A stretch of 64,000 nt of DNA, taken from Gigantopelta aegis (lineage: Eukaryota > Mollusca > Gastropoda > Neomphalida > Peltospiridae). The stretch covers positions 42,183,118 through 42,247,117 of the forward strand of contig NC_054706.1 of the NCBI RefSeq assembly GCF_016097555.1, given 5' to 3'. This document shows positions 40,447 through 64,000 of this stretch, piece after piece (position 1 is the stretch's first letter; each line of letters opens with the position of its first letter). Under the pieces are notes generated by a model, which saw only the letters and a list, made by a program, of their open reading frames with translations, ran no database searches and had not been told where the DNA came from. Made by a program: the position numbers and the translations under genes.

Positions 40447-40572
40447 CACAACGGTACTCAACTGTATTAGAAACTTAATTTAGTTAGGGATATCACCGCT
40501 GATCAAAACAGTGGTACTCGACTGTATTAGAAACTTTTAATATTGTTAGGGATATCACTGCTGATCAAAACA
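40447..40572 (+). repeat. Tandem duplication of about 62 bp
   Basis: Two adjacent copies of a unit running from ggtactcaactgtattagaa to gggatatcaccgctgatcaa, with few differences. Confidence 0.8.
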
Positions 40573-42070
40573 ACGGAAGTGATATAGTGTTCATCATTAA
40601 AATCATTTATCTTGGGTACCAAATAATGTGTGCACTGCCTTTACAAATACAAAACTACCTTTATCAGCTAGTGATAGCATATCAATGGGATCGATTCAAT
40701 CAAAAAAGAAATAAATGAAAAGAACAGAAAAACGTTATCCCATATTGGGGTATCACTTGAATTTTTTAAAATTATTTTTGATATATTAAAATAATATTAA
40801 AACTTTTAATCGGTTCCCCAAAATGAATGCCCATGAATGTCGGACTGACAATATCTCAGTTAAACTACATAAAGATAAGTCAGCTTGTACATCGTACCAT
40901 CATTTTTGTACCAGATACTGGGGCAAAATAAGGGCTAAGTCGACCAACACAATAATATACAGTAACCTAGATTTCCTTTTTTTCTTTTTTCTTTTTTCTT
41001 TTTTGTTTGTTGCTTTTGTCATTTTCTTTTTTAAGGGGGGGGGGGGGGGTGTATTTGTGCAGTCGCCTAATGTATTTAAAATAATCTGCTGCCATTGTAA
41101 CATATTTTTGAGTAACAGAGTAGATGTATTTTTAGCAAATAAAATTAAATATTAAATATATTTTATTGTTTAAAATGTCAGTATTTGCAGTGTTCTCGCT
41201 GCTTCATTTAAGCGGGACGCCCCGCCCCGCTATTCCATTTTTCCGCCCTCCTTTCACGTACCCCGCCCTCCTTTATTTTTGAGCGCCCCTCTTTATTTTC
41301 CAGCACCTATCTCCGCTATTTCCAAATGCACTTTTTTTCCCACACAGAAAACAACGATCAGTCTGCATACTGGACATAAAAGGAAACAAACTGCGTTGTG
41401 TACGAAAGAGCAATTGACGAAACATTTACGACAGTTACCGTAACGTAATTTAACAGTATTTTTAACAGCCTCTATTTTGTCCAATATCTGTATCCATTTG
41501 TATGTTTGATAGACACAATAAAAGTTATATTTTATGTAAGCAATGAAAACATTTTATTTTTTACGGATTCGGCAATCTCCGATTGAAAAAAAACCCACTC
41601 TTATTTGGCGCCAAATTTGTCACGTGATCAGAACGGTCATTCTGTCTTGTTTCTACTAACTATCGTTTGATATTTTGTCCTCTGTTGCAGATATAATTGG
41701 TTGAAACTGATGATTTTTACTTTCTGTTATTCTGTTTATTAAGCAGATCTTTATAAAATATTGTAAACTTTTGATTTTGAGGGGATATGAACGCTTATAA
41801 AAACAACGGAAGTGCTAGTGTTTATCATTAAAATAATTTATCTTGAGTGCCAAATAATGTATATACCGCCTTTACAAAAACGAAACTACTTTTTATCAGC
41901 TGGCGATATTTTATCACAGCGATCGATTCATTCGATGAAGATGTAAATAACAAAAATGTATCTGACATTAGGAGATCACTTTACAAACATCTTTATTGTT
42001 TTTCGTATATCTTGGAATCTTTATTAAAAAACCCCGGAACTGCCCGTGAATGTCAGACCCGATATCATCT

Positions 42071-42532
42071 GGCCTCAGACCACAATTAATTTCACTATGT
42101 ATTCTCATGTAGCCCCAGTGGCTGTAGCACTTTTATTAATTTCACCAGGCCATTAGCATTTCACGGGAAACATTACCTGCTTGGGCCCATTGAACACTCG
42201 AAAGGACGACATCTGTTGTCCAGCTCTTTTCCGCGTTATATCAATGTAAACAAACACACGTGGGCTAAGGGACCGAATCACACCCATTTCTCTGCATTTT
42301 ACACAAATTTTGCATGACTTCAATGTGCTCTGGGGGACATTATGCAGTATCCAGTGTAAACCAAGTGCACATATTCACTAACTGCATCCTCTTACCTGTC
42401 AAACCCAGTGTAAGAATCCAGTATACTAAGCAGCTCCCCAGCCATTAATCACATCACAAGAAAACTATATTTTCTCGCATTAGCTTCCGTATTTTGGACA
42501 ACCAAATGGGTGGATAACTCTAGTCTGAGGCC
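42071..42532 (+). repeat. Direct terminal repeat, left
   Basis: 462 bp, bounded by inverted 12-bp tips (ggcctcagacca / tagtctgaggcc). The same sequence recurs at 46537-46998. The interior contains no ORF. It could equally be a MITE whose two copies bracket the genes. Confidence 0.9.
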
Positions 42533-43253
42533 TATCAGACCAAAATTGTTTTCACCATGACACTCAAACTCACATATGGCATTTAAATACATATGTCAAG
42601 TTGCATACAGGCAATAAAAAGAATATTTGATACCAAATATGGCTATTGGAGCCTGTGAAATGGGGAACTGCCTGTGCCGCAAAAGGCGGCAATCTGCGTC
42701 AAATTATTCCCAATAGTGGACTAGTAATTATGCAATAACTTTAAAAGTTACAGACATTTTTCTGAACAACAAAAAGAAACTTGCTCCTTATTGTGTTCTC
42801 TGCAATTGAAATATAGCAGTTGGCAGGAATATGATTTTTTCCAAAACAAATTCAATTTAATTTAAATTGATACATTTTCAAAAAAAAAATTCCCACAAAG
42901 TTCTCTTTTTAAACAAAATTTAATCGTTAAAACTGTAAAATTTTGGATACTGCACGCAGTCAATATATGCCAATTACAAATTAGGACTGCTCGAGTGTCA
43001 TTCTGGTGAGGGTAATTAGCAAGGTGTCTGCACACCGTAACAGGTCATACCTGAATGCATAGGACAGGGCACCAGTCTGCAAAGATGCAGTACCGAATAC
43101 ACAGTGAACAAAAAAAAGCTGTCAACTGCCACTGCACTGAAATGTTTTAATGCATCAGAACTGAAAGTGACATCACACATGAACATGTATATAAGGGTGG
43201 ACATGCATACCACAATAAGTATTTCACTGTTTTATACACTACGAGTCACATCC

Positions 43254-45252
43254 ATGGAAGGCAATACAAGATGAAAGACACAGTTCAAGAAGGGACATGC
43301 ACCTTGGAATAAGGGTGCAACTCTGCTGCATGAACATGCAAGTCCAGAATCTCACACTGAGAAGTTGCGACCAGTAGTCCGGATGAATATAGACGAGTTT
43401 GCCTTGGTCACGAAGTCAAGTTCCACTTCAGCCACCATATCCACTCCAGATTGCGAAGGTGCGTCACAGCCAGTCCACCTGCTATGTCCCATTACGAGTA
43501 CATGTACTGCGTCTGAAATGAAAGAAGAACAACAGTGTAAAGACAAAGAAGGCATGAGAATAATGGACAATGACAGAATGGTAGATGCATGGAATGCAGC
43601 TTTCAGATACCACTCAACAGCTTCCCCTGAGTGCGACGAGCCTGAAATGCAAATATTAAAAGAGGTTAAGTGGGGTCTTTGTTGGAAAATCACACTACAC
43701 TGTGTGAATTGTGACTTCACTGCTCCTGAAAGCAAATTGTACAATGAGGTGAAGACAAATAAACCTGGCCCAAATGCAGCAAAAACTAATGTGGGTCTTG
43801 CTATCGGTCTCCAAGATACTCCCGTCGGCAATACGAGAGCGAGAGTGCTATTGGCAGGCATGGACATTCCACCGCCGTGTCGGAGCAGCATGCAGAGAAC
43901 ATACAAGGTATCAACGGCTGTAACAGATCTAAAAGAAAAAGATATGGCACAAAAAGTTGAGCTACTGAAAGACATTAACATGAAACGTGGAAATGAACGT
44001 GATGAAATTAACATAGCCATGGATGGGAGATACAACTCCATGACAATAACAAGTCGGAAGAAACCGGGCCAGAATGCATCACAAGCTATAGGACTTGCGT
44101 GTGAAACAATGACTGAAAGAAAATTCATTGTAAGTGCCTGCTTCCAGAATAAACTTTGTTGGACCGGAGCCTGGTTAAGAAACAAAGGTATTCATGTGAC
44201 GTGTCCCGGTGGTCATCCTGACTGCACAGCAAACTTGCCGCCATTTGCTCTGCTGTCGGAATACGAGATGGGAAAAGATATCGGAACAGACTTGGCTCTA
44301 CAAGGTATTCTCATAAAATACGTCACAACAGATGGAGATTCCAGATCATCTGCTGGAGTTGATAGTGCTTTGAAACTTCTACATCCAATGTGGAAAGTGC
44401 AGCGGCTAGCTGATCCAACCCACTTAGGTCAGAGTCAGTTTCGTAAGTGTTACAAAGCTAACTTCAGTCCCGACATGTTTACTGGGTCCACCCGTGAACA
44501 AAAGCGTGAAGCACAGAAGGTATTCAGCCAGGATATGAAAGCAAGGTGCAGTTTAATTCTTAAAGAACTGATGAAACTACACACTGGTAATATCGGTGTA
44601 CTGAAACGAAACTTACCAAAGGTCCTGCAATCGACACTTTCGTGCTACGGTGGTGACTGTTCAAAGTGTTCGCGGTACTCGGTCGTCTGCAGTGGAGGAA
44701 TAACGAACAACTGGTGGCACCGATCCATGTTCCTGGGTACACACAGAATCACAGCTGAATATGAATGAAAATGACAAAATGTTAGTACTGGAACTTCTGA
44801 AGATTAAACTAAGTATTTCAGCTGTAGAGCAAATGAAACTGTATACAGACACACAGAAATGTGAGGCTGCGAACCGTTCTCTCAGTGTTTCCTTACCTAA
44901 GAATGTGAACTATTCACGAACGATGATTGGGAGAGCTGCATCCACCATCCACAGGCTGAACAACGCCCCGGGAACATCGATGATAGAAAAGTGCAAGTAC
45001 TGTGGCATCGAACTGTCAGCTCGGGTGAGGCGTTCACTGCGTCAGATGGACAAAGAGTCGGACTATCAAAAAAGATATCAAAACAATCCACAGGTGATTA
45101 AAAGGCACTTAGTCCAGCAAGGAAGTAAAATTAGAGATCACTTACGATATAAACATTTGCACAGAGATCAACAAGCTGACTACAAGAAAGGATTATTAGA
45201 TATTGACAGTCAAAGAACAGACAACTCCTGTGACCACAGTTATTCAAAGTAA
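43254..45252 (+). CDS. Mutator-like transposase, two frame defects
   Basis: About 665 codons. It starts at ATG 43254, has an in-frame TGA at 43272, then reads KTQFKKGHAPWNKG, an N-terminal lysine-rich PWNKG motif. The frame runs open to 44768 and homology continues in the +1 frame to 45252, so a single frameshift lies near 44750. Core motifs are INIAMDGRYNS (about 44010), KYVTTDGDSRSSAGVDSAL (about 44320), RLADPTHLGQSQFRKCY (about 44404), and a Cys cluster SCYGGDCSKCSRYSVVC (about 44640). Then come DTQKCEAANRSLSVSLPKN (about 44850) and a His/Cys C-terminal end. The set matches the Mutator-like transposase domain proteins that are abundant in mollusc genomes. The first two motifs probably carry catalytic Asp residues (inference). 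Few defects suggest recent activity. Confidence 0.8.
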
Positions 45253-45479
45253 TTTTTGTCACAAACCTTCAAGTGATACATATAATATAGGAACTATCAG
45301 TTTGCATGATAGCATTTCTGCTGTGGATATGAACCCTAGACATTGAAGACTGACTTTAAACAATAAAAAATAGTAATGTGAATAAATGTATGCTTTTGAA
45401 TAAATGTATCATGTGATATTTATATGTGATTTTATGACATAAAATATTTCTTTAAATTAAACTTAATTGTTTTACATTC

Positions 45480-45860
45480 TTATATGTTATGCATTCTGAG
45501 ATGCAAGAGGCAGGGAGGGTATTGTCCATGTCCCTGACAGACATCCCGGTTCACACATTGTATGCGCGAGCTGTTAATTGCATGTGGCTCAGCAGATGAG
45601 TGATCTTTAAACATACAAAGACGGTTATGGCACAGGTGACTGATGTCACTGCCATCTAGGTCCATCTCCTTATTAAAGACCATGAAACTTAATCTGTGAG
45701 CATTTACTGTACGATACTGGCCTGTGATTGGTGATTTGAACTTAATAGCACCATATCCATTTGGTCTGGGAGGCCCATTCCACATTATACATTCACCATT
45801 TGGCCCAGGATCACATTTTGAAAAAATTACCCTCTGGTATTTTTGATAAAAAGCCTCCAT
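45480..45860 (-). CDS. Small His-Cys-box (I-PpoI-like, His-Me finger) endonuclease
   Basis: 126 codons from ATG 45860, intact (a GTG two codons upstream is less likely). Order: GECIMWNG and NGYGAIKF at the start, AHRLSFMVFNKE, then DISHLCHNRLC with the His expected to act as general base, a later HAINSSR whose Asn could be the metal ligand, and the second zinc site CVNRDVCQGHGQYPPC. This is the zinc-binding loop pattern of His-Cys-box homing endonucleases. It lies tail to tail with the transposase gene, 227 bp away. In this family the enzyme makes double-strand cuts at a specific site. Here it may assist mobility. It could also be a co-opted DNA-binding protein. Confidence 0.75.
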   Translation of the reverse strand: MEAFYQKYQRVIFSKCDPGPNGECIMWNGPPRPNGYGAIKFKSPITGQYRTVNAHRLSFMVFNKEMDLDGSDISHLCHNRLCMFKDHSSAEPHAINSSRIQCVNRDVCQGHGQYPPCLLHLRMHNI

Positions 45861-45885
45861 TTTCACTTGTTCAATTAGCTCAATT

Positions 45886-46525
45886 ACTCAAAGTGAGGCC
45901 CTCACAGGGTGCAGGGATACATTCTGATTGAAAAGAATGACCTATGACCTGATAGGGGTACAATGCATGCTGAATTATGTCATAATTTGTGAAATTACAA
46001 ATTTTGAAAATATAAATATAATAAAATTTAATTTAATTTAATTTAAAGAAATAAAATATTCATCACCCAAACTGATAACTTTCAGATTTCCACCTATCTG
46101 CACAATTATCATGTACATTTTGAGTGCTGTAACTGGCATAATTACCTCACAATTTGGTATCAAAGTGTGTCACCCTGTGTCAAACATCATTGAAGAAATC
46201 CTCCATATTGACTTATTTGACCTTAACCTTCAAAGTGAGGCTCTCATAGGGTGTAGGGATACAGCCTGATTGAAAAGAATGACCTATGACCTGATAGGGG
46301 TACAATGCATGCTGAATTATGTCATAATTTGTGAAATTACAAATTTTGAAAATATAAATATAATAAAATTTAATTTAATTAAACAAAATAAAATATTCAC
46401 CACCCAAACTGATTAGTTTCAGATTTCCACCTATCTGGACAATTAGCATGTACATTTTGAGTGCTGTAACTGACATAGTTACCTCACAATTAGGTATCAA
46501 AGTGTGTCACCCTGTGTCAAACATC
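45886..46525 (+). repeat. Tandem duplication of about 345 bp inside the element
   Basis: Two nearly identical blocks start caaagtgaggccctcacagg (45889) and caaagtgaggctctcatagg (46232), and both end near gtgtcaccctgtgtcaaaca. They lie between the endonuclease promoter side and the right terminal repeat. Confidence 0.85.
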
Positions 46526-46536
46526 CTACTATATCA

Positions 46537-46998
46537 GGCCTCGGACCACAATTAATTTCACTATGTATTCTCATGTAGCCCCAGTGGCTGTAGCACTTTT
46601 ATTAATTTCACCAGGCCATTAGCATTTCACGGGAAACATTACCTGCCTGGGCCCATTGAACACTCGAAAGGACGACATCTGTTGTCCAGCTCTTTTCCGC
46701 GTTATATCAATGTAAACAAACACACGTGGGCTAAGGGACCGAATCACACCCATTTCTCTGCATTTTACACAAATTTTGCATGACTTCAATGTGCTCTGGG
46801 GGACATTATGCAGTATCCAGTGTAAACCAAGTGCACATATTCACTAACTGCATCCTCTTACCTGTCAAACCCAGTGTAACAATCCAGTATACTAAGCAGC
46901 TCCCCAGCCATTAATCACATCACAAGAAAACTATATTTTCTCGCATTAGCTTCCGTATTTTGGACAACCAAATGGGTGGATAACTCTAGTCTGAGGCC
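46537..46998 (+). repeat. Direct terminal repeat, right
   Basis: Same length and orientation as 42071-42532. The visible differences are ctcgg for ctcag, tgcctggg for tgcttggg, and gtaacaatcc for gtaagaatcc. Confidence 0.9.
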
Positions 46999-47249
46999 AT
47001 CTTCGGTTCAGTTAAAATACGAGGTTTTTTTTATAAATCCCTTTGCACTTTTTTGTAGGCAAAATAAGGAGTATGTCTTTTCTCAAAGTCTACCAACACA
47101 CAACAATATAATAACCAAACTACTCCCCCCCCCCCCCCCCCCCCCTCCCTTTTTTTTTTTTTGCTCTACGTTTATTGTTTTTTTTGAAGGGTGTGGTGCC
47201 GACCGGCCGCCCTCCTTTAATTTTCACCCAGCGAGAACACTGGTATTTG

Positions 47250-48340: not shown

Positions 48341-48974
48341 GTTTGTAATCACATAACTGTTATTTACTCGAGGATAAACAGGTACTGAGAAAATTTCCGT
48401 CCGGTTTCATTGATACAGTTGACATTAAATAAACATGAGACTGGTTTCGTCCACTGCTCATTTTAAAGGGGTAAGCTATCATGTTAAACATATGAGCCAT
48501 TTCGAAAATTACGGATTTCCTGAGGATGTCAATGTGACATCAGGCTCGCCAGAGTCTATGAATACGAATATGTTTATTTGGATTGCTAATCATTTGACAG
48601 CATGTTCCACACAGACTTATTTTCAGGCTTATTTTAATAAAGATGTTTTGCAGATTTTTAAATGAAAATAATAATATGCCTGTAATAAGAGAAAATATCC
48701 TACTGGTCCAACTGGAGGGTACTAAAGGTTTCATCTCAGTCCTTCAGTCTGTCTGTCTGTCCTACAAACAGTTTTATGGATGTTTTTTTCCCACAATGCC
48801 TCGAGATATTAAGCTGAAATTTTGTGTACATGGCTGTGTATACAGATCAAGTGTGACTTTAATGAGATTTGATACATTTTGACAGTTATGGCCCTTGAAC
48901 TTCGAGGAAAAAAAAGTATTGGACCCTGTAGGGGACATGTATTTCTTTAGTAGTACTCTCAGAGCCGTTCATCG
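48341..48974 (+). other. Intron 2, first part; no gene
   Basis: AT-rich. 48730-48960 (from tctgtctgtctgtcctacaa to ttatggcccttgaacttcga) resembles a dispersed mollusc repeat that I recognise only loosely. Confidence 0.45.
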
Positions 48975-50745
48975 GTCCCGGAGTTGGGAATGTCACACTA
49001 CTCCTCGTAATGAATTTGATCATCAGGATTGCGTGGGTCCCAGAGTTGGGAATGTCGCACTCCTCCTCATAATGAATTTGATCATCAGGATTGCGTGGGT
49101 CCCGGAGTTGGGAATGTCACACTCCTCCTCATAATGAATTTGATCATCAGGATTGCGTGGGTCCCGGAGTTGGGAATGTTAGCACTCCTCCTCATAATGA
49201 ATTTGATCATCAGGATTGTGTGGGTCTGGAGTTGGGAATGTCAGCACTCCTCATAATGAATTTGATCATCAGGATTGCGTGGGTCCCGGAGTTGGGGATG
49301 TCACACTCCTCCTCATAATGAATTTGATCATCAGGATTGCGTGGGTCCTGGAGTTGGGGATGTCACACTCCTCCTCATAATGAATTTGATCATCAGGATT
49401 GCGTGGGTCCCAGAGTTGGGAATGTCACACTCCTCATAATGAATTTGATCATCAGGATTGCGTGGGTCCCTGAGTTGGAAATGTCACACTCCTCCTCATA
49501 ATGAATTTGATCATCAGGATTGTGTGGGTCCCGGAGTTGGGAATGTCAGCACTCCTCATAATGAATTTGATCATCAGGATTGTGTGGGTCCCAGAGTTGG
49601 GAATGTCACACTCCTCCTCATAATGAATTTGATCATCAGGATTGCGTGGGTCCCAGAGTTGGGAATGTCACACTCCTCCTCATAATGAATTTGATCATCA
49701 GGATTGCGTGGGTCCCTGAGTTGGAAATGTCACACTCCTCCTCATAATGAATTTGATCATCAGGATTGTGTGGGTCCTGGAGTTGGGAATGTCACACTCC
49801 TCATAATGAATTTGTTCATCAGGATTGCGTGGGTCCCGGAGTTGGGAATGTCACACTCCTCCCCATAATGAATTTGATCATCAGGATTGTGTGGGTCCCG
49901 GAGTTGGGAATGTCAGCACTCGTCCTCATAATGAATTTGTTCATCAGGATTGTGTGGGTCCTGGAGTTAGGAATGTCAGCACTCCTACCCATATCAATTT
50001 TAGAGAGAGAGAGAGTACCTTTATTATGCCCCTATACCACTAAGGTTTCGGGCATGTCTGTCGCAGGCCAGGTCTCTGTATAGCCAGTGGTCTGGTCTGG
50101 GACAGATATCAATTTGATTGTCAGGATTGCATGGGTCCAGGAGTTGGGAATGTCACACTCCTCCCCATATCAATTTGATCATCAGTATTTCATGGATCCC
50201 ACTCATGTCAGCACTCCTCCTCAATGAATTTGATCATCAGGATTGTGTGGGTCCCGGATTTGGGAATGTCAGCACTCCTCCCCATATCAATTTGATCATC
50301 AGTATTTCATGGATCCCAGAGTTGGGAATGTCAGCACTCCTCCCCATAATGAATTTGATCATCAGGATTTTGTGGGTCCCGGAGTTGGGAATGTCAGCAC
50401 TCCTCCCCATATCAATTTGATCATCAGGATTGTGTGGGTCCCGGAGTTGGGAATGTCAGCACTCCTCCCCATAATGAATTTGATCATCAGGATTGTGTGG
50501 GTCCCGGAGTTGGGAATGTCAGCACTCCTCCCCATATCAATTTGATCATCAGTATTTCATGGATCCCAGAGTTGGGAATGTCAGCACTCCTCCCCATAAT
50601 GAATTTGATCATCAGGATTGTGTGGGTCCCGGAGTTGGGAATGTCAGCACTCCTCCCCATATCAATTTGATCATCAGTATTTCATGGATCCCAGAGTTGG
50701 GAATGTCAGCACTCCTCCTCATATGAATTTGATCATCAGGATTCC
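48975..50745 (+). repeat. Minisatellite, about 62-bp unit, about 28 copies
   Basis: The unit contains gggtcccggagttgggaatg, cacactcctcctcataatga and atttgatcatcaggattg. Copies vary by small indels and by an alternate form (ccatatcaatttgatcatca then tatttcatggatccc) in the right half. Because 62 is not a multiple of three, all three frames stay partly open, producing false proteins rich in GVGNVSTPPHNEFDHQDCVG. Confidence 0.93.
50001..50105 (-). mobile_element. 105-bp short retroposon in the minisatellite
   Basis: Flanked by the 10-bp duplication atatcaattt (49991-50000 and 50106-50115). Read on the - strand it starts ctgtcccagaccagaccact and ends in a (CT)n tail. It is related to 2871-2946 and 58455-58525. 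Confidence 0.75.
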
Positions 50746-52803: not shown

Positions 52804-54537
52804 CAGGGCTCGAACTTTAAAGGTGGCAACAACTGCAATTGCCGTCGGTGAGATATAAACTGCCATCGGTTGGGGGCTCCTCACTGATGGCAAAATGTAT
52901 AAACGTGTATGAACATTATCTGCCAGTATTTAACATGGGTGCTTGGATCCTGGTTGGAGTTAATGGGTGTTTAGTTAGTACCACTTGATGCAACTAGTCA
53001 TGTGCGTACCCTGTGTTGTTGTATAATATACGTTCTCACTGCATTTTGCTCGCTTTCAAGTTATGCCGCCCCTTTTCACATTTGGCAGCCCAATTTGTTT
53101 TTCTGTGCCGCTCTTTATTTTTCGGCACTCTGTTATAATTTACAGCACCCAGCTTCGCTATTTCAAAATGCACACTTTTTTTATGCTGAAAAACATTGAT
53201 CAGTTTTCACACTGGACATCAAAGGAAACAAGTTGCGTTGTGTACGAAAGTGCAACTGACGAAAACCTTCAGTAGCTTACAACAGTGACTGCAACGTAAT
53301 TTAACACTATTTGTTAACAGCCTCTGTTGTGTCCCATACCAGTATCCATTTGTATGTTTGATACACACAATAAAAGTTATATTTTATTTTATCAATGAAA
53401 ACATTGTATTTTTATTGTTTCGGCAATCTCCGACTGAAAACCCCCCACTTATTTGGCGCCAAAATTGTCACGTGATCAAAACGGTCATTCTGTTATGTCC
53501 ACTAACTCGTGTATGATATTTTATCCTCAATTGCAAATTTAATTGGTTGTAACTGATGATTTTTACTTACTGTCATTTGTTTATTCAGCAATTCTTTATA
53601 AAATATTAGAAACATTTTTTGGGGTGTGTGTGTGTGAGACATATCACTGCTTATAAAAAGTGGTAGTGTGCAATATTAAAATCATTTATCGTGGGTGCCA
53701 AATAATATATACATTGCCTTTACAAAAACGAAACTACTTTTTATCAGCTGGCAATATCAAATCGATTGATTCATTTGATGAAGATGGAAATAAAAAGAAC
53801 AGAAAAATGTTATCCCACAGTAAGGGATCACTTAAAAAATTTCTTTAGTATTTTTCAGATATCTTAAAATCTTTATTAAAATAGTATTATTAAAACTGAT
53901 TGGTTTAGTGAAACGAATACCCGTGAATGTCAGACCGACACTCCATTTTAGCTGACAGTGCATAAAAGATAAGGCAGCTTGTACATCGTACCAACTTCTG
54001 AATACCAGATACTGAGGGGCAAAATAAGGGATAGGTATTTCCACAAAGTCGAGCAACACACAACGATATACGGTAACCAATCGTTACCTTTTTAAACAAA
54101 TTTTTTTGCTTTTCAGTGTTGTTTTTTTGTTGTTTTTTTAAATGGTGTGGTGGGGTGGTTGCATGACCACCCTGCTTTAATTTTTACGCAGCGAGAACAC
54201 TATACAATTTAAAGTCATCCATGGAATACTTTTCATGTCATATTCACTGAAAACTTGGGCAACTTTGTCTTAGAAACACCAGGTTCCGTTAAATGTTAGC
54301 TTATGCTAGTAACTATAAGTCCATGATTCGATTTATAATAAATTCTTGTTTATTGAAGTTTATTGACATATATTAAAGAAATATGTGTACATGTACATAC
54401 AGAAAAATAATCTTTCAGTCAAGTTTATTTGTTGCAAAAGTCAATTCAATAAAAATGCTGTCGGCATACTCAAAATTGCCATCGGTGGGCCTTTTCACTG
54501 ACAGCTATTTTTTTTTAATTCTTAAGTTCGAACCCTG
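52804..54537 (+). mobile_element. hAT-like element V (CAGGGCTCGAA ends) with X nested, copy C
   Basis: Left end cagggctcgaactttaaagg at 52804. Inverted right end (rc of ttcttaagttcgaaccctg) at 54537. It splits the DIRS coding sequence. X is nested inside from about 53024 to 54201, ending gcagcgagaacacta. There is no coding capacity. V and X join at the same point in copy A (35715), so they probably moved together. Confidence 0.6.
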
Positions 54538-62127: not shown

Positions 62128-62374
62128 CACACACACGCACGCACGCATGCACGCACAGAAACACACGTGAGCTTCACTCACAGACACACACACCCGTGAG
62201 CTTCACACACACACCAGTGAGCTTCACACACACACACACCAGTGAGCATCACACACACACACACACACCAGTGAGCTTCATACACACACACCAGTGAGCT
62301 TCACACACACACACACCAGTGAGCTTCACACACACACACACCAGTGAGCTTCACACACACACACACCAGTGAGC

Positions 62375-62414
<40 letters not shown>

Positions 62415-63634
62415 AGTGAGCTTCACACACACACACCAGTGAGCTTAACACACACACACCAGTGAGCTTCACACACACACACACACACCAGTGAGCTTCA
62501 CACACACACACACACACACCAGTGAGCTTCACACACACACACACACCAGTGAGCTACACACACACACACACCAGTGAGCTACACACACACCAGTGAGCTA
62601 CACACACACCAGTGAGCTACACACACACACACACACCAGTGAGCTTCACACACACACACACACACACCAGTGAGCTACACACACACACACATCAGTGAGC
62701 TACACACACACCAGTGAACTACACACACACACCAGTGAGCTACACACACACACACCAGTGAGCTACACACACACAAACCTGTGAGCTACACACACACACA
62801 CACACCAGTGAGCTTCATACACACACACCCGTGAGCTACACACACACACACACACCAGTGAGCTTCATACACACACATCAGTGAGCTTCACACACACACC
62901 AGTGAGCTTCACGCACACACACACACCAGTGAGCTTCACATACACACACACACCAGTGAGCTACACACACACACACACACACACCAGTGAGCTACACACA
63001 CACACACACACCAGTGAGCTACACACACACACACACCAGTGAGCTACACACACACACACCAGTGAGCTACATACACACACACCAGTGAGCTACACACACA
63101 CACACACACCAGTGAGCTACACACACACACACCAGTGAGCTACACACAAACACACACACACCAGTGAGCTACACACACACACACCAGTGAGCTACACACA
63201 CACACACACCAGTGAGCTACACACACACACACACACCAGTGAGCTACACACACACACCATTGAGCTACACACACACCAGTGAGCTTCACACACACACACA
63301 CACACCCCAGTGAGCTACACACACACAGACACCCCAGTGAGCTACACACACACACACACACCAGTGAGCTACACACACACACACACACCAGTGAGCTACA
63401 CACATCAGTAAGCTACACACACACACACACACACCAGTGAGCTACACACACACACACACCATTGAGCTACACACACACACCAGTGAGCTTCACACACACA
63501 CACACACCAGAGAGCTTCATACACACACATCAGTGAGCTTTACACACACACACCCCAGTGAGCTTAACACACACACCAGTGAGCTACACACACACACACC
63601 AGTGAGCTTCACACACACACACACACCAGTGAGC

Positions 63635-63672
<38 letters not shown>

Positions 63673-63779
63673 AGTGAGCTTCATACACACACATCAGTGA
63701 GCTTCACACACACACACACACCAGTGAGCTTAACACACACACACCAGTGAGCTTCACACACACACACACACCAGTGAGC

Positions 63780-63813
<34 letters not shown>

Positions 63814-64000
63814 AGTGAGCTTCACACACACACACACACACCAGTGAGCTACACACACACACACACACACACACACACCAGTGAGCTACACACACACCAG
63901 TGAGCTACACACACACACACACCAGTGAGCTACACACACACACACACCAGTGAGCTACACACACACACACCAGTGAGCTACACACACACACACATCAGTG
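62128..64000 (+). repeat. CA-rich minisatellite with ccagtgagct spacers, open at window edge
   Basis: Variable (CA)n blocks of about 8-36 bp alternate with ccagtgagcttca or ccagtgagctaca, more than 70 times in 1.87 kb. The left part favours gcttca, the middle gctaca, and the right part mixes both. Frames on both strands across it are artefacts. Confidence 0.95.

Follow-up and report, generated by a model that had tools for sequence, protein, structure and literature searches.

KolobokP transposons, according to the main text of their first report (Kojima & Bao 2022, Mob DNA 13:24, PMC9587614), enclose two genes, one for a transposase and one for a homing-type endonuclease, in long direct repeats, and they are known from molluscs, Gigantopelta aegis among them. 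The long terminal direct repeats (LTDRs) measure ~450 or 660 bp, possess their own inverted tips of up to 18 bp and end in RR..YY. Between them, the interior (INT) encodes a DDD/E transposase with a DxxH signature and two zinc fingers and, downstream on the opposite strand, a His-Me finger (I-PpoI-like) nuclease. The same text describes target duplications of 3–5 bp without strong sequence preference, solo LTDRs and (LTDR-INT)n-LTDR multimers, together with the proposal that the nuclease stimulates LTDR recombination. Pseudo-compound transposons and translocatable units of the IS26 / IS6 family, as presented in PMC7986276, are comparable in that directly repeated modules flank a passenger, arrays form and a one-module circle is a possible intermediate; these systems are bacterial, however, and their transposase gene lies inside the repeated module, whereas here it lies in the passenger.

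Anatomy of the window element

The window (the whole stretch of 64,000 nucleotides that was analysed) contains an element which, judged by its sequence, is a young, frame-broken KolobokP copy in the order LTDR-INT-LTDR. Pairwise repeat comparison and genomic copies defined the left LTDR (42071–42532, plus strand; 462 bp, tips GGCCTCAGACC and AGTCTGAGGCC), and pairwise repeat comparison defined the right LTDR (46537–46998, plus strand; 462 bp). The two differ at 3 positions in 462 bp (7, 111 and 344), and ATCT target duplications lie directly outside both ends (42067–42070 and 46999–47002). The ends of a single LTDR pair as an imperfect 18-nt inverted repeat (83%) and read GG..CC. The preliminary description, which had noted two 462-bp direct repeats with about three differences, inverted tips and ATCT flanks, proved accurate in each of these respects, and also in stating that the interrupted sequence resumes beyond the element. 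The flanks, joined without the element, align to a related repeat in the window at 53352–53881 (78%, left flank) and 54018–54080 (81%, right flank); these matches cover both flanks, so related repeat sequence extends on both sides of the insertion. A second related window repeat (40525–40724, 78%) gave a BLAST match for the left flank only, its right side being recovered via a weaker gapped alignment.

The INT (42533–46536, plus strand; 4004 bp) has TATCA at its start and end. Its left end (42535–42566, plus strand) resembles the left end of the LTDR (42075–42107) over 33 alignment columns (p = 2e-4, the lowest value that 5000 shuffles allow), and a subterminal tandem duplication (342 bp, 1.9 copies) occupies 45888–46525 on the plus strand. 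The first part of the transposase is a 497-aa open frame at 43275–44768 (plus strand; PF20700, E = 7.1e-72) containing DGRYN, a CCHC finger, TDGDS, DPTH and a CYGGDCSKC finger. The frame breaks upstream of the catalytic E, and the C-terminal remainder (182 aa), which includes TQKCEA as its catalytic-E region, lies in another frame at 44704–45252 (plus strand). The DDD/E transposase DxxH signature and both zinc fingers are present in the window copy as well as in homologues, as assigned by eye and by alignment, and catalysis is predicted. Among 68 listed transposase matches, 29 are stop-free across residues 2–663; copies with an uninterrupted transposase frame thus exist in the window's genome.

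The transposase had been described beforehand as nearly intact and Mutator-like. The Pfam match stands and the frame is broken before the catalytic E; 'Mutator' is the name that Pfam gives to PF20700, and the features fit Kolobok. MuDR elements produce target duplications of 8–11 bp, whereas we measured 4 bp at 31 loci. A zinc finger situated after DxxH and before the final catalytic residue is likewise a Kolobok trait, and the 4-bp duplication and GG..CC ends, like the CCHC finger and the endonuclease, agree with the definition of the Kolobok superfamily in PMC9587614.

The predicted His-Cys-box (I-PpoI-like) endonuclease had been called intact, and its 135-aa frame is indeed open (45480–45887, minus strand; PF05551, E = 2.9e-9; five homologues), with residues S97, H98, H110, E114 and N119 spaced as given in PMC9587614. 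Most of the 17 INTs examined keep this frame open, although it is not always of full length. A profile search of the PDB gave no match at E up to 1, and a single-sequence PDB search returned no relevant chain, only designed trefoils at E 0.003 and worse. The structure model was left unused because a mean pLDDT of 36 is uninformative. Palindromes in the LTDR, scanned with 8-base arms, reached at most 6/8 pairs, and therefore we put forward no candidate endonuclease site.

Set against the published definition, the element has LTDRs of the ~450-bp class (462 bp) with short inverted tips (18 nt, 83%) and RR..YY ends (GG..CC), duplications within 3–5 bp, solos and multimeric arrays. It also has the same gene pair, namely a DxxH and two-finger transposase (with the E in another frame in the window copy) and a downstream opposite-strand PF05551 nuclease (PMC9587614). 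It is very probably a KolobokP with synchronised LTDRs. The architecture is already known, KolobokP having been published in 2022 (PMC9587614); the initial remark that no described animal element was known to pair the two enzymes fails on this point, and a new architecture is rejected. Each of the two explanations originally offered is right in part, as the element is a real mobile unit and of composite-like build. Four features distinguish our observations from the main text of PMC9587614, where they are unreported: a preference for ANNT targets, synchrony of LTDR pairs, INT-end bases outside the left LTDR, and the likeness of the INT and LTDR left ends.

Copies in the genome and their target sites

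In the window's 1.15-Gb genome, the best 40 of 671 LTDR candidates listed showed 99–100% identity, and the left LTDR/INT junction had 900 occurrences with 2 or fewer mismatches vs one for the reversed-pattern control, so the element is not a chance arrangement. Right junctions numbered 144 vs the 900 on the left. Five further left-junction loci were older family copies (87–97% in the INT), and one stretch ~4 kb downstream of one such locus contained no family sequence. Three genomic forms have common inner junctions: monomers with 4-bp duplications of their own, solo LTDRs, and head-to-tail arrays sharing LTDRs. Solos made up 15 of the best 40 matches, and 14 of these 15 were flanked by an exact 4-bp duplication. 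The LTDR-INT-LTDR layout recurred at other loci, as the preliminary description had proposed to check, with an exact 4-bp duplication of its own at 17/25 monomers and the exact abutting duplication missing in 8/25 (the tallies 14/15, 17/25, 15 and 25 of 40, and 29/68 were counted by hand). As the sequences of these copies show, the element inserts as a unit, producing a 4-bp target duplication; the LTDR also exists alone with its own duplication, and head-to-tail arrays share LTDRs.

The inner edges were common to 17 aligned INTs; one of these lacks 1 bp close to its left edge, and two (L038 and L043) are ~330 bp shorter. LTDRs standing alone with their own duplications had been anticipated as the mark of a chance bracket of two MITEs. 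This expectation was borne out in part, but does not imply such a bracket, because the 17 INTs have the same edges and 17 of the 25 monomers their own duplication; with inner junctions shared by these INTs and other loci, we reject it.

The pattern ANNT fits 20 of the 31 duplications, whereas PMC9587614 reports no strong preference in its main text. ATATCA, the INT's own right end, terminates 7/58 of the outer left flanks read. The count was 6/41 in the first set, 6/57 over all outer left flanks once L095 was added, and 7/58 with M7, which the script had sorted among interior ends and which was therefore counted by hand. In M7 the match to the INT end extends over 9 bp, and this locus may represent a truncated array. 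The ATATCA ends of these outer left flanks look as if the donor had been a circle or an array.

Synchronised LTDR pairs and their possible origin

We compared the LTDRs of 25 monomers: nine from the best LTDR matches, seven of 20 elements fetched and nine fetched later. The 13 dropped from the 20-element set had an LTDR that was missing from the fetched stretch, cut off or incomplete. The monomers were chosen for LTDR identity or exact junctions and represent young copies, a non-random sample; the right LTDRs of N05, N16 and M7 were partial, and L040 and the arrays were omitted from the pair analysis. Differences per 462 bp amounted to 3.86 within elements and 7.46 between elements (permutation p at most 5e-6), with between-element distances of 7.29 for left-left and 7.61 for right-right comparisons. 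Smaller sets agreed in direction, with 9/9 pairs the same at shared sites and the 16-monomer set likewise. In a tree of 24 of the monomers (M7 excluded), own LTDRs clustered for N02, N16, N19, M12b, M13, M5 and L041, and full support was missing at 37/40 inner branches. Four of the 25 monomers (L038, N04, M12c and M7, the last with 182 bp of right LTDR read) had at least seven foreign right LTDRs closer than their own. Exchange between elements occurs, since L040 holds two LTDR types adjacent and L014 a mixed type. By this comparison, both LTDRs of one element trace to a recent common template; the pairs carry common element- or subfamily-specific changes with no left or right lineages, in the manner of LTRs. 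Presumably the INT-encoded DDD/E transposase acts on the LTDR tips, and the endonuclease stimulates recombination of LTDRs, in line with the proposal in PMC9587614.

Synchrony might arise if the LTDRs are renewed from a single LTDR at insertion, from an LTDR-INT circle or an array-copied unit in a cointegrate-like process, a possibility that we regard as appreciable if somewhat doubtful. A single-repeat circle duplicating its LTDR on insertion would explain both the synchrony and the ATATCA flanks. In its most specific form, which we consider rather unlikely, KolobokP would correspond in eukaryotes to the IS26-type translocatable units: the mover, a circle or an array-copied unit, would comprise one LTDR and one INT, with insertion duplicating the LTDR and the ends rebuilt identical at each move. 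To our knowledge, IS26 / IS6 elements have no His-Cys-box endonuclease.

Somewhat more likely, though just short of an even chance, is that insertion is plain transposition and that conversion or unequal exchange between LTDRs after insertion, driven by the endonuclease or the host, is the sole source of synchrony. Arrays and solos are common, LTDRs are mixed at L040 and L014, and most of the 17 INTs retain an open endonuclease frame, although not always at full length, as expected from a model published in PMC9587614. Recombination alone, however, leaves the INT-end bases outside the left LTDR at 7/58 outer flanks unaccounted for. If monomers formed when an LTDR-INT circle recombined with a solo LTDR already in place (model b1 in PMC9587614), many solos would be available and the outer duplication would persist; the mixed pair at L040 matches this model. 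It nevertheless predicts frequent unlike LTDR pairs, whereas the 25 monomers as a group are closer within than between elements and 9/9 pairs agree at shared sites, which makes it improbable.

We consider very improbable an ordinary cut-and-paste composite, in which the genes lie between two LTDR modules and the monomer moves as a block with its ends unrenewed. The LTDRs' own inverted tips, the 4-bp duplications at 14/15 solos and the outer duplications at 17/25 monomers fit such a composite. It predicts left and right lineages, however, and the left-left (7.29) and right-right (7.61) distances are not below the between-element left-right value of 7.46, with within-element pairs closer (3.86), so block movement without end renewal is contradicted by the LTDR distances of the 25 monomers. 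A non-autonomous LTR retrotransposon that acquired both genes would share the synchronised direct terminal repeats, 4-bp duplications and solos, but is scarcely credible and is rejected on its ends (GG..CC rather than TG..CA, with inverted tips), on ORF content (the INT ORFs of at least 80 aa comprise the endonuclease, the transposase frames and two frames antisense to the latter, and 29/68 listed copies of the DDD/E transposase are still open) and on a Pfam search of three ORFs, which matched no reverse transcriptase.

Significance for KolobokP

As the layout was previously described, the main surprise of the preliminary description is gone; the remaining question, left by the discoverers (PMC9587614), is how the composite layout is maintained. 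The genome copies suggest that both LTDRs are kept in step. Synchronised LTDR pairs, the ANNT target and INT-end bases outside the left LTDR are three testable signs relevant to whether direct repeats can be re-formed by a DNA transposase each time the element moves. If renewal of the LTDRs at insertion is true, a DNA transposase would make direct terminal repeats without reverse transcription.

Structure and identity of the element

The element at 42071–46998 consists of two 462-bp long terminal direct repeats (LTDRs) bracketing a 4004-bp interior (INT); the LTDRs mismatch at positions 7, 111 and 344, in line with the roughly three differences of the preliminary description. Each LTDR ends in an imperfect inverted repeat of 18 nt starting GGCCTCAGACC, and ATCT abuts the element on both outer sides, so the inverted tips and flanking ATCT had been correctly recognised. 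The interrupted sequence does continue beyond the element: a related repeat at 53352–54080 matches its left flank at 78% and its right flank at 81%, with the element absent. Elsewhere in the window, a minisatellite array lies downstream (48974–50743; 62-bp units, ~29 copies), a long AC-rich tandem array (62167–64000) extends to the window end, and a 355-aa open frame (121–1188) was judged by eye to be a putative Tc1/mariner-type transposase.

On its plus strand, INT encodes a transposase matching PF20700 (Pfam, E 7.1e-72), with DGRYN, CPGGHPDC, TDGDS, DPTH and CYGGDCSKC retained in the first of two frames and TQKCEA in the second. It had been called nearly intact, which holds for the domain match and motifs but not for the reading frame, broken in the window copy upstream of the catalytic E. 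The minus strand carries an open frame of 135 aa (PF05551, E 2.9e-9; Pfam), whose S, H, H, E and N are spaced like residues 97, 98, 110, 114 and 119 of I-PpoI (numbering as cited in PMC9587614); the frame of this I-PpoI-like endonuclease is open, in agreement with the preliminary description. A 342-bp tandem duplication sits between its gene and the right LTDR. Two transposase relatives (P0101 and P0104) are recorded under Candidatus Thiodiazotropha metagenome bins, and are probably host DNA binned together with the symbiont.

The preliminary description read the element well and correctly; its proposal of a new architecture does not stand, as the element is of a known kind. The tested features fit KolobokP (Kojima & Bao 2022, PMC9587614), as far as the accessible parts of that paper describe it: LTDRs of ~450 or 660 bp (462 bp here, beside ~450), duplications of 3–5 bp (4 bp here), and solo LTDRs, multimers and both proteins, reported across seven phyla and present in this family. 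The same parts give seven KolobokP families for Gigantopelta aegis; this genome has probably been surveyed before, and the window's family may already be catalogued among them. A full-text literature search for KolobokP returned nothing beyond this paper.

Genomic copies and target sites

We searched the genome (1.149 Gb, 5216 contigs) with the LTDR. The best 40 of 671 candidates comprised 15 solos, 14 of them with exact 4-bp duplications, and 25 LTDRs at 18 loci with INT. Seventeen aligned INTs shared a left edge, TATCAGACC (1-bp deletion in one), and a right edge, CCTACTATATCA. Head-to-tail LTDR-INT arrays were read on three contigs (C1, C4, C8), and regular junction spacing suggests more on small contigs. 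Genome-wide, at ≤2 mismatches, the left LTDR/INT junction occurred 900 times (reversed-pattern control, 1) and outnumbered the right junction, with 144 occurrences (control, 0). A transposase search with a 78%-identical homologue from a protein search listed 68 matches (713 candidates; 67 scored), and 29 of these 68 covered residues 2–663 without a stop. Together with INT divergence of 0.0–1.3% (2.2–2.7% for one copy, L038, against the others), this indicates that the family is young and that uninterrupted frames exist. The layout first described in the window recurs at other loci with common INT edges, alongside arrays and solos.

Among 31 exact duplications, A was first in 26, T last in 25, and both (ANNT) occurred in 20, from 12 of 17 monomers (LTDR-INT-LTDR) and 8 of 14 solos (p ~1e-13, assuming 0.31 for each base); whereas no strong target preference was seen for KolobokP in the available text of its description (PMC9587614).

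LTDR synchrony and flank junctions

We compared LTDRs in 25 monomers with both copies read fully or partly. An element's own pair differed by a mean of 3.86 per 462 bp, against 7.46 for left versus right LTDRs across elements (permutation p ≤5e-6, the smallest value that the test can return). Left LTDRs differed among themselves by 7.29 and right LTDRs by 7.61, both near the between-element value, so separate left and right lineages are not seen; with the within-pair closeness, these sequence distances make the LTDRs appear renewed from a single template at or near each round of movement. Subfamily changes are present in both LTDRs together (in N12 and M8, a set of five sites; in M12a, M12c and M9a, 193T and 208C), LTDR distances among nine elements track those of their INTs (Mantel r 0.62, p 8e-4), and a tree with 3 of 40 inner branches fully supported placed own LTDRs adjacent for N02, N16, N19, M12b, M13, M5 and L041. 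Counter-cases exist: L038, N04, M12c and M7 each have at least seven foreign right LTDRs nearer than their own, L040 pairs two LTDR types, and L014 is of mixed type. The main text of the KolobokP paper (PMC9587614), in its accessible portion, does not contain the terms 'concerted', 'cointegrate' or 'replicative', or any word built on 'homogen'.

Read from sequence, the family inserts as a unit with a 4-bp duplication and has solos, arrays and synchronised ends; the transposase would act on the LTDR tips. Synchrony has close to an even chance of stemming from conversion or unequal exchange between LTDRs, perhaps started by the endonuclease; the discoverers of KolobokP propose endonuclease-begun recombination for multimers, in the part of their paper available (PMC9587614). 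More tentatively, a single LTDR could be duplicated when a circle or array-derived unit inserts, in a manner comparable to the cointegrate route described for IS26.

Of the outer left flanks read, 58 were distinct, and 7 of these (including M7, added by hand) close with ATATCA, the right end of INT, as expected if the incoming DNA had INT joined left of that LTDR, in a circle or array. Such loci (L031, L009, L069, L095, L116, L122 and L049, which forms the 5' terminus of the C8 array) mostly lack an abutting duplication, and ATATCA was outside the left LTDR at 0 of 31 loci with exact abutting duplications. In the C8 array, an ACAT duplication immediately precedes the carried ATCA; at L031, a GTAT duplication is displaced 8 bp outward; and at L035, where the flank ends in TCA only, AGGC is duplicated 3 bp out. 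No displaced duplication was seen at L009, N05 or M9b. Microhomology insertion at a chance ATATCA is another way to such flanks, but likewise requires an INT end joined to an LTDR. The left end of INT also resembles that of the LTDR in an alignment of 33 columns (p 2e-4, the lowest value obtainable from 5000 shuffles), perhaps as a remnant of an ancestral terminus. The interest now left in this family lies in these side results: LTDR synchrony, target preference and flank junctions.
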